A stretch of 64,000 bases of DNA from Melioribacter roseus P3M-2 (GTDB taxonomy: Bacteria > Bacteroidota > Ignavibacteria > Ignavibacteriales > Melioribacteraceae): positions 186,001-250,000 of the forward strand of contig NC_018178.1 of the NCBI RefSeq assembly GCF_000279145.1, in the 5' to 3' direction. Of the stretch, positions 3,284 to 5,889 are shown piece by piece (position 1 is the first letter of the stretch; each line of letters begins with the position of its first letter). Position numbers and translations under genes: made by a program. The notes beneath the pieces are model-generated. The model did not search any database. It was not told where the DNA came from and was given only the letters and a program-made list of their open reading frames with translations.

Positions 3284-3312
3284 TTGACACTTGTAAAGTC
3301 GATAACTAAATT
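3284..3312 (+). promoter_or_regulatory. candidate promoter of the cytochrome gene
   Basis: A perfect TTGACA (3284-3289), a 17-base spacer and TAAATT (3307-3312) lie 41 bases before the cytochrome start. A strong GGAGGG ribosome site is at 3343-3348, four bases before the ATG. It reads into the only plus-strand operon of the left half. Confidence 0.6.
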
Positions 3313-3352
3313 AAACAGGAGATTTACCTCTCATTAAAATCCGGAGGGTAGT

Positions 3353-4675
3353 ATGAAAAAACTAATATTCTTTTTTATAATCTGCGGTATAATTACGGCT
3401 CAACCCGAGCAAGGGAAATTTTCTTATAAAGATTTTAAGAAGCCCGAATTTTGCCGTTCCTGTCACAACGATTTTTATCAACAGTGGAAACAGGCAATGA
3501 TGTCCCAGGCATATACACACGAATGGGATGAAATAGAATACTTCAAATTGGCTGTGCCGCACGCGGAAAAAGACGAAAAAGTGGCGGAAGTAAAAGCGGG
3601 TTGCAACGGCTGCCATTCTCCAATCGCATATGTTTCGGGTGATACTCCGCCCCCTTTGCCCAAAATGAATTCGCGCGCCAACGAATCGGTCTCGTGCGAC
3701 GTTTGTCACAGTATCAAAGGCTATTCCGGAGACGTGCCGTATAATTTCAATTATATAATGGAGCCGGGTAAAACCAAATTTACGTCAAGAAAAAATAGAG
3801 TTGATTCTCCCGTTCACGAAATTGTAGTAACGGAACTTCATAAGAGCGGCGATTTTTGCGGCATCTGCCACAACGAAAAAAGTCCTTACGGAGTATGGGT
3901 AAAATCAACTCATCTGGAATGGAAGGAAGGACCGTATTCGAAAGAAGGAGTTCAATGCCAGGATTGTCATATGACAAAAGGCGAAATGAAAACCGCATCG
4001 ATGGGACCCGCATATAAAGACGCCAAGCTTCATCTGTTTCACGGCGCGCACGACCCCGGCAAAGTGCGAGGCGTTATTGAGCTGCGTATAAATCCGGACA
4101 TGCGCCAAGCCGAGCCCGGGGAAACCGTAAAATTTACGCTCGCCCTTTTCAATCAAAAAACGGGACATAAATTTCCCACAGGGTCGGTCGAAGATCGAAT
4201 CGTATGGCTGCATGTGGAAGCAGTCGATGCCAACGGAAAAGTTTATCACCTGCCCGTCGATAAAAAAGGATTCGAAGGAGAAGAGTATACAATAGCAAGT
4301 AAAGAACTCGCTTATCAGGATATGGGAATTGCGCTCGGCAATCCGGATTTCAAAGGAGTCGAACGCGACGGTGTGCCCGAAGGCGACAGAATTTTCAGAA
4401 TGCCTTACTTCGATCCTCAGGGCAGAATGACTATTCAACAATGGAACACTGCGTCTTTAGGCGTCGATTACAGAATCGGTCCGCGCGAAACCAAATTGGA
4501 AACGTTCACTTTTCACATACCGGACGACATGCCGCCGGGCAAACTCAAAGTGACCGCCGTTTTAAATTATCAGTTGTTGGTTAAACCGGTAGCCGATTTT
4601 CTCGGGGTTCCGGAAGAAGAATCGAGAATTGTAGAAGTTAACAGGCACTCGACCGAAATCGAAATTTTACCATAA
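3353..4675 (+). CDS. pentahaem c-type cytochrome (cytochrome c554-like N-terminal region)
   Basis: This 440-residue exported protein begins with a Sec signal (hydrophobic residues 3-16). It carries five CxxCH haem-binding motifs, at residues 34-38, 84-88, 115-119, 169-173 and 202-206. The haem part resembles the cytochrome c554/multihaem c family. The remaining half (about 230-440) is haem-free and beta-rich, with a GHKFPTGSVEDR segment near 275-286. It probably shuttles electrons in the periplasm or at the outer membrane. It is followed after 18 bases by a haem-bearing barrel protein, so the two probably act together. The donor and final acceptor are unknown. Confidence 0.85.
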   Translation: MKKLIFFFIICGIITAQPEQGKFSYKDFKKPEFCRSCHNDFYQQWKQAMMSQAYTHEWDEIEYFKLAVPHAEKDEKVAEVKAGCNGCHSPIAYVSGDTPPPLPKMNSRANESVSCDVCHSIKGYSGDVPYNFNYIMEPGKTKFTSRKNRVDSPVHEIVVTELHKSGDFCGICHNEKSPYGVWVKSTHLEWKEGPYSKEGVQCQDCHMTKGEMKTASMGPAYKDAKLHLFHGAHDPGKVRGVIELRINPDMRQAEPGETVKFTLALFNQKTGHKFPTGSVEDRIVWLHVEAVDANGKVYHLPVDKKGFEGEEYTIASKELAYQDMGIALGNPDFKGVERDGVPEGDRIFRMPYFDPQGRMTIQQWNTASLGVDYRIGPRETKLETFTFHIPDDMPPGKLKVTAVLNYQLLVKPVADFLGVPEEESRIVEVNRHSTEIEILP

Positions 4676-4693
4676 CAAAACGCGGGCAATAAA

Positions 4694-5854
4694 ATGAAAA
4701 AATTAATACTCTTATTCGTCCTTATTCTTTTTTCGGCTGAATTCATTTACGGCATACCTGCTTTTGCCAGAAAATACAGAATGAGCTGTCAAACTTGCCA
4801 CGCTCCTTTTCCTAAATTGAAACCTTACGGAGACGAATTTGCAGGCAACGGTTTCAGATTATCCGATCAGGAAGCGCCGCGATATTACATTAACACAGGC
4901 GACGACGATCTATCCCTTATCAGAGAACTGCCGCTTGCAGTTCGTCTTGAAGGCTACACAACTTACAATATGAACAATTCTGACAAATTTGACTTTACAG
5001 CTCCGTATATCTTAAAATTACTTTCGGGAGGCGAACTGTCGAATAAGATTTCATATTATTTCTATTTCTTTTTCAGCGAAAGAGGCGAAGTGGCAGGCAT
5101 CGAAGATGCTTTTCTTATGTATAACGACCTGTTCGGATACGACCTCGATATTTATTTGGGTCAATTCCAGGTGTCCGACCCGCTGTTTAAAAGAGAGTTG
5201 AGACTTACGCTCGAAGACTATTCGATCTACAAAGCCAAACCGGGATATGCCAAAGCCGCCTTAACTTACGACAGAGGATTAATGATAACGTACGGCGCTC
5301 CAAGCGGAACTGATATCATCCTGGAGATACTCAATGGCAACGGAATCGGGGAAGCAAATAATCTGAAAATATTCGACGACGACAAATATAAAAACGTTTT
5401 GTTGAGAATATCACAGGACGTAAACGATAATCTAAGACTCGGAGCATTCGGTTATTACGGAAACGACGAAATAGAAGACGATTTCGGATATAATTTTACA
5501 AACGAATTCTATTCGTGGGGAACCGATTTGACTTTGTCGTATGAAAATATGTGGGAATTTAATCTTCAGTATCTCTACCGTAACGACAAACAGGCTACCT
5601 ATTTTAACAACGACGTCGAGACCCAAGGCGGCTTGGCGGAACTGATCTTCAGTCCGGAAGGAGACGAAAGCAAATGGTACGGAGTCGCTTTGTTCAACTG
5701 GGTCGATTCCGAATGGAAGCCTCTCGACTATAAAACCGCCACCATCGGCGTCGGTCATCTGTTAAATCGAAATATCAGGTTAATAAGCGAATGCACATAC
5801 AACATTAAAGATGAATTTGCCCAATTTAGCCTAGGTATAATTTCGGCGTTTTGA
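4694..5854 (+). CDS. outer-membrane beta-barrel-like protein with N-terminal CxxCH haem motif
   Basis: The 386-residue protein has a signal peptide (residues 1-20), then one haem motif, CQTCH, at residues 32-36. The rest (about 75-386) alternates hydrophobic and polar residues in short strands rich in Tyr, Phe and Gly. It ends in Phe, the usual terminal residue of outer-membrane barrels. I infer a porin-like protein with a covalent haem near its periplasmic end, paired with the upstream pentahaem cytochrome. I do not recognise a named family. A perfect hairpin terminator follows the stop codon. Confidence 0.7.
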   Translation: MKKLILLFVLILFSAEFIYGIPAFARKYRMSCQTCHAPFPKLKPYGDEFAGNGFRLSDQEAPRYYINTGDDDLSLIRELPLAVRLEGYTTYNMNNSDKFDFTAPYILKLLSGGELSNKISYYFYFFFSERGEVAGIEDAFLMYNDLFGYDLDIYLGQFQVSDPLFKRELRLTLEDYSIYKAKPGYAKAALTYDRGLMITYGAPSGTDIILEILNGNGIGEANNLKIFDDDKYKNVLLRISQDVNDNLRLGAFGYYGNDEIEDDFGYNFTNEFYSWGTDLTLSYENMWEFNLQYLYRNDKQATYFNNDVETQGGLAELIFSPEGDESKWYGVALFNWVDSEWKPLDYKTATIGVGHLLNRNIRLISECTYNIKDEFAQFSLGIISAF

Positions 5855-5856
5855 TC

Positions 5857-5889
5857 AATGAGTTCCCAATAATTTATTGGGAACTCATT
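5857..5889. terminator. bidirectional terminator between convergent genes
   Basis: A 16-base perfect inverted repeat (5857-5872 against 5874-5889, centred on AATAATTTATT) is followed by T-runs on the plus strand. It lies between the stop of the plus-strand barrel gene and overlaps the stop of the minus-strand phosphatidyltransferase gene, so it can serve both. Confidence 0.85.

Follow-up and report, generated by a model that had tools for sequence, protein, structure and literature searches.

A Cyc2-type cytochrome-porin with an inherited pentahaem cytochrome partner in Melioribacter roseus: a candidate two-protein electron conduit across the outer membrane

Cyc2 proteins have been described as a signal peptide and one CXXCH followed by a porin of 16 strands that resembles OprO and OprP, and Fe(II) oxidation has been shown for one member of each of their three clusters (PMC8406198). 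They were screened for by length, by the motif PXFAR[Q/K][T/Y], by the CXXCH with a PXL downstream, and by a blastp match at E <= 1e-5 to any of three cluster queries (PMC8406198). Cyc2 homologues have already been reported in Ignavibacteriaceae and Bacteroidetes MAGs, and the sections of that report drawn on here name no pentahaem partner for them (PMC6344600). In a different outer-membrane arrangement, that of MtrCAB and OmbB-OmaB-OmcB, the gene of a haem-free, many-stranded barrel (MtrB is quoted at 26-28 strands; PMC10654088, PMC5877670) adjoins the gene of an exported multihaem cytochrome, and a separate Geobacter-like PCC has been reported for M. roseus (PMC6137239, PMC7399161). Among the multihaem cytochromes, a PHC family was recently proposed that takes in ExtKL, Gsu2801 and cable-bacteria proteins and has structural kinship to Thermochromatium tepidum c552 and to AvECN, an archaeal cytochrome nanowire (PMC11976967). 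ExtKL has been found to be more abundant with Fe(III) (PMC5877670).

The locus described here lies in a stretch of 64,000 nucleotides of Melioribacter roseus P3M-2 (NC_018178.1, positions 186,001 to 250,000), which we call the window and whose first letter is position 1 below; the source genome is 3,300,414 bases long, in one contig. Two genes on the + strand, 18 nt apart, make up the locus, with the following features:

3284-3312, + strand: possible sigma-70-type promoter, TTGACA-17-TAAATT, a consensus match alone (10/12)
3343-3348, + strand: ribosome-binding site GGAGGG, as read from the sequence
3353-4675, + strand: pentahaem cytochrome gene of the PHC (ExtKL / T. tepidum c552-like) kind, 440 aa
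3452-3466, + strand: haem site 1, CRSCH
3602-3616, + strand: haem site 2, CNGCH
3695-3709, + strand: haem site 3, CDVCH
3857-3871, + strand: haem site 4, CGICH
3956-3970, + strand: haem site 5, CQDCH
4694-5854, + strand: Cyc2-type fused monohaem cytochrome-porin gene, 386 aa, 16 predicted strands, C-terminal Phe
4757-4777, + strand: PxFAR[QK][TY] signature, PAFARKY, the published Cyc2 screening motif (PMC8406198)
4787-4801, + strand: single haem site of the barrel protein, CQTCH (residues 32-36), with APF-PKL after it
5857-5889, + strand: intrinsic terminator, a 15-pair stem with 5 G-C pairs and a T run after it

The genes flanking the pair are housekeeping-like and lie on the opposite strand. 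Across the whole window, these two are the only reading frames of at least 70 aa with a CxxCH. The locus thus resembles MtrCAB and OmbB-OmaB-OmcB in that an outer-membrane barrel gene adjoins the gene of an exported multihaem cytochrome, but differs from them in that the cassette, on this count within the window, has no surface multihaem cytochrome, and in that its barrel has 16 predicted strands and a CxxCH of its own and so is not of the haem-free, many-stranded sort. A preliminary description of this DNA had proposed a compact porin-cytochrome route distinct from MtrCAB, with its own terminator and a strong promoter. The anatomy does fit such a route, and the terminator is supported by its stem and T run, although terminator-like sites in the region number 6 against 3.9 expected. 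The strong promoter is not established: 17 sites in the region match the consensus at 10/12, against 7.0 expected, and by eye nothing clearly equivalent was seen ahead of the gene in 13 orthologues. Nor is the barrel half of the route new, being of the known Cyc2 type.

The barrel protein carries, as had been described, a CxxCH near its N-terminus and a barrel-like remainder ending in Phe (...ISAF). In an AlphaFold2 model built from 44 aligned proteins, 16 strands run from residue 81 to the C-terminus, so that the protein models as a 16-strand outer-membrane porin and not as a soluble fold; all but one of residues 16-78, which make up the haem region, fell below pLDDT 50. By VIA-align the model comes closest to OprO (Z 24.9, rmsd 4.8, 302 aligned) and OprP (Z 24.5, rmsd 3.9, 300 aligned), scores that are tied with those of other porins, e.g. 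Omp32 at Z 24.6, and Foldseek likewise returned 16-strand porins. Family models had little to add. The protein matched no Pfam family at E <= 1 and nothing in NCBIfam, and PDB sequence searches with it gave nothing useful; the silence of Pfam says little, because 5/6 other cytochrome-porins scanned also stayed below its cut-off.

Every part of the published Cyc2 screen that we ran picks out this protein. PAFARKY stands 3 residues before CQTCH, the same spacing as in named relatives; the one CXXCH is followed by a PXL; the 386 aa exceed the required 365, as do all 44 aligned barrels; and the predicted barrel has 16 strands and a porin fold of the OprO/OprP kind. The features are kept across the alignment, one CxxCH and a PxL occurring in 44/44 proteins, a terminal Phe in 41/44, and P.FAR[QKR]Y three residues before the CxxCH in 42 (3 of them with R at the Q/K position), the other two having P.FGRKY. 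A FARQT-type query also finds the window barrel, at E 6.8e-15 and 30% identity over query residues 11-156, and the similarity to Cyc2 of Acidithiobacillus, Mariprofundus and Chlorobium covers the first ~145 residues. By motif, PxL, length and predicted fold, therefore, the window barrel is a Cyc2-type fused cytochrome-porin and no new class of barrel. It differs from the described Cyc2 proteins in having a G where the longer consensus AXPXFAR begins with A, in belonging to a separate clade, and in being linked to a pentahaem partner of the PHC kind.

The separate clade was seen in two trees. A profile search of 395 Bacteroidota genomes gave many further cytochrome-porins, 39 such loci were fetched, and five named Proteobacterial plasmid records found with a FARQT-type protein query were added; the window barrel as query found no relative at E <= 1e-3 in the plasmid collection. 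Each sequence was cut so that it began 30 residues ahead of the CxxCH. The first tree had 65 rows, of which 21 were drawn from the 44 window-type proteins and 44 were other cytochrome-porins; the second left out six of the 65 (L117-L122), and L101 is in neither. Window-type proteins form one clade with SH-aLRT 100 in the first tree and 100/99 in the second, on a branch of 1.1 changes per column, and the FARQT-type clade of 14 rows, including the five named Proteobacterial records, stands apart from it with support of 100/100. Both clades persisted in the second tree. Long branches meet in both trees, and the support concerns the clades, not the order between them.

In 9/9 of the FARQT-type loci among the 39 fetched, the ORF next to the barrel has one CxxCH, and the product of the one scanned (L104) belongs to the class I cytochromes c. 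All five named records have an annotated c-type cytochrome near the barrel. At 22/29 of the non-FARQT loci among the 39, no listed neighbour ORF has a CxxCH, and so cytochrome-porins are not always found beside a cytochrome gene. The loci L084-L103 come from a family with genomes of about 2-3 Mb (f26, which we infer to be Chlorobiaceae), where there are several paralogous FARKY-type cytochrome-porins per genome and several of the loci continue with genes of ~190, 110 and 257 aa that have no haem motifs. In another cytochrome-porin lineage (L112, L113, L115) the barrel is followed by a two-CxxCH protein of ~265 aa, which Pfam, in the one case scanned (L112), assigns to the class I cytochromes c. 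In the M. roseus genome, no second cytochrome-porin was found with either of two queries.

The partner gene encodes, in agreement with the preliminary description, an exported-looking five-haem cytochrome, with a signal-like hydrophobic N-terminus, a haem domain bearing the five CxxCH sites and a C-terminal Ig-like domain (~residues 236-440). No lipobox was seen in this protein or in 36 orthologues. The five haem sites are kept in 37/37 aligned proteins, and His 70, 155, 227, 233, 272 and 299, none of them part of a motif, are invariant in the same 37, a number that would be enough for ligating five haems, to judge from the alignment. Haem site 1 alternates between CX2CH (16/37) and CX3CH (21/37), and such close orthologues offer a natural series for the study of non-standard haem motifs. 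Pfam gave cytochrome c7, c554 and NapC/NirT-like haem stretches, and NCBIfam a weak ExtKL match (NF040886) at 43.4 bits against a cut-off of 250, short of the equivalog threshold. Against PDB sequences the best match was 5ZE8, the pentahaem c552 of T. tepidum (E 7e-8; 5e-10 with a profile), and an AlphaFold2 model, of moderate quality (pLDDT 76) and with haems absent, aligned to 5ZE8 by Foldseek at 1.4e-13 and by VIA with Z 21.9, rmsd 3.9 and 336 aligned residues, the next row scoring 10.3. The second-best sequence match, AvECN (8E5G), came at E 0.036 and 0.072, by itself not significant. With five haem sites, a C-terminal Ig-like domain and the predicted c552 fold, the protein fits the recently proposed ExtKL-like PHC family, which it shares with ExtKL of Geobacter and the sPHC of cable bacteria. 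It differs from them in lying far under the ExtKL cut-off, in having a partner porin with a haem site of its own, and in standing, within the window, apart from any other multihaem gene.

The two genes travel together. Among 97 related genomes, the source genome included, and with a window-type barrel taken as one of 45% identity or more, 33 had both genes, 1 had the barrel only, none had an intact pentahaem gene only and 63 had neither (Fisher p 4e-25, a test that ignores kinship). By coordinates the pentahaem gene adjoins the barrel, upstream of it, in 33/33 genomes with both; in five genomes (G011, G030, G038, G046, G051) the barrel contig has a partial pentahaem gene only, again beside the barrel, and a single stop interrupts the barrel frame in G010 and the pentahaem frame in G013. 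In one genome (G096) the pentahaem gene is a fragment broken by four stops, and nothing there matches the barrel. The genome with the barrel only (G062; L028, and L123 = G062:C13) has it at full length and of the window type, with a histidine kinase gene upstream, and nothing in that genome matches the pentahaem protein. Both genes are missing from G001, the only congeneric genome in this set. The named collection has the pentahaem gene at 23/25 barrel loci. Over the 55 loci from the source genome, related genomes and the named collection, at least five of which are the same contigs fetched twice, it was present in 52; the other three are L028, L046, where the contig begins within the barrel, and L048, where the barrel is in pieces. 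Of the 24 window-type loci from the 395-genome search 23 have it, including 9/9 from genomes outside the 97, compared with 0/44 of the other cytochrome-porin loci within the 4 to 11 kb covered. Over 33 loci, the distances between pairs of barrel proteins track those between the matching pentahaem proteins (r 0.84), none of 2000 permutations being as high, in a test that ignores species descent. Neighbour clustering gave no widespread third partner. Few neighbour families recur, the commonest at 7 loci and with no Pfam match in the two members scanned. Adjacency, co-occurrence, correlated distances and the scarcity of recurring neighbours together mean that the pair behaves as a cassette, in a near-exclusive, inherited partnership.

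It seems reasonably probable that this partnership forms a two-protein electron conduit across the outer membrane, in which a PHC protein would stand where the FARQT-type loci have a small cytochrome. The barrel protein, in which a short haem domain leads into a 16-strand barrel, would span the outer membrane, with haem presumably attached at its CQTCH. The exported pentahaem protein would dock on its periplasmic face and link the single haem to the periplasmic electron pool, thereby filling the place of the small cytochrome c found beside FARQT-type barrels. The route would then consist of a small outside redox partner, the barrel haem, the pentahaem protein and the periplasmic pool, and we infer each transfer step along it. 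Docking from the periplasm is the more likely arrangement because a haem-bearing 16-strand barrel would be unlikely to enclose a pentahaem protein. An MtrA-like plug inside the barrel was considered as well and set aside, given the 16 predicted strands and the haem domain that the barrel has of its own. A 16-strand pore with a single haem would probably exchange electrons on its outer side with a redox partner that is small and soluble, such as chelated iron, a quinone or humic group or a flavin, and not with a solid mineral. The simplest reading would be that the periplasmic partner was swapped on a common fused-barrel design.

The pair could instead be an Fe(II)-oxidizing system of the Cyc2 kind, where Fe(II) would be oxidized at the barrel haem and electrons would pass inward via the pentahaem protein to oxidases or nitrite reductase. 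This possibility, which we hold to be doubtful but worth keeping in view, draws on the Fe(II) oxidation shown for a Cyc2 of each cluster, on the passage of the window barrel through the parts of the Cyc2 screen that were run, and on COX1, which is above its cut-off in 31/34 cassette hosts. COX1 is, however, not enriched in hosts over non-hosts (p 1.0), and the window clade is separate from the FARQT-type clade. The named hosts (Marinilabilia, Tangfeifania and others), moreover, are not known as Fe(II) oxidizers. Much of Cyc2 Clusters 2 and 3 has also been said to need verification (PMC8406198).

A different division of labour, and an unlikely one in our estimate, would make the pentahaem protein a periplasmic reductase of nitrite, hydroxylamine, selenite or a similar oxyanion, to which the barrel would import substrate or pass electrons, as discussed for ExtI and ExtKL of Geobacter. 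There, the reduction of selenite and tellurite is influenced by ExtI, a porin like OprP, with ExtKL as a possible reductase (PMC5877670), and PHC proteins have been placed among potentially catalytic cytochromes (PMC11976967). Consistent with such a role, NrfA is commoner in cassette hosts (29/34 versus 28/63 non-hosts, p 9e-5 with kinship ignored), the counts by family being 19/22 versus 12/35 in f1, 9/10 versus 13/25 in f3 and 1/2 versus 3/3 in f2. Yet a plain substrate channel would have no need of the haem site that is kept in all of the barrels aligned, and the ExtKL model gives the pentahaem protein 43 bits where 250 are called for. That the two genes are unrelated neighbours, adjacent by chance in this genome, is extremely improbable: G062 does have the barrel without a pentahaem gene and relatives of either protein family occur separately, but the two adjoin in every genome that has both, amid otherwise changing surroundings. 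The motifs themselves are more than chance, the five haem sites, the barrel CxxCH and, with few exceptions, the terminal Phe being constant across the alignments.

If the pair is a conduit, as we favour, its direction can be argued either way. Known Cyc2 activity argues for inward flow, while the abundance of ExtKL with Fe(III), the heterotrophic character of the named hosts and the excess of NrfA point towards outward flow or anaerobic respiration, and we lean slightly to outward flow in the cassette hosts. A more general and quite tentative proposition, open to considerable doubt, is that Cyc2-type barrels with a PHC protein normally work outward, as a minimal, horizontally spread terminal-reductase conduit between heterotrophic or fermentative Bacteroidota and their kin and small extracellular acceptors. 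Bolder still, and very unlikely, would be an extension in which the PHC subunit, as fold kin of the AvECN nanowire, polymerizes into a wire.

The barrel type and the PHC family are thus already known, and it is their inherited one-to-one pairing that was not found in print, no description of a Cyc2-type barrel paired with a PHC protein having come up in the portions of the CC-licensed PMC literature searched. Cyc2-type genes serve as a marker of iron oxidation, a use that may mislead for this clade, because the barrel here partners a PHC protein, whose family has been tied to the reduction of Fe(III) and of selenite, and its hosts are not known as iron oxidizers. The pair would also be among the smallest conceivable electron conduits across the outer membrane; as two small genes it can be moved to a laboratory host, and it makes the direction of Cyc2-type barrels directly testable.

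As to its spread, Melioribacteraceae and other Ignavibacteria hold the close relatives of the cassette. Further copies lie in Bacteroidales and in records that bear the labels Aminicenantes, Caldithrix and Krumholzibacteriota, MAG labels being taken on trust, and this presence suggests that the cassette has moved between lineages. The cassette and a FARQT-type barrel are rarely in one genome (1/34 hosts versus 14/63 non-hosts, p 0.016, uncorrected). In Stygiobacter electus (L048:5001-5933), where the barrel is in pieces and no pentahaem match lies within ~5 kb on each side, the upstream genes match those of a locus (L032) that carries the full cassette. In Sunxiuqinia dokdonensis (L054:5658-6827) the barrel gene is broken by a stretch that may be a mobile element and has a 389-aa ORF running in the opposite direction.
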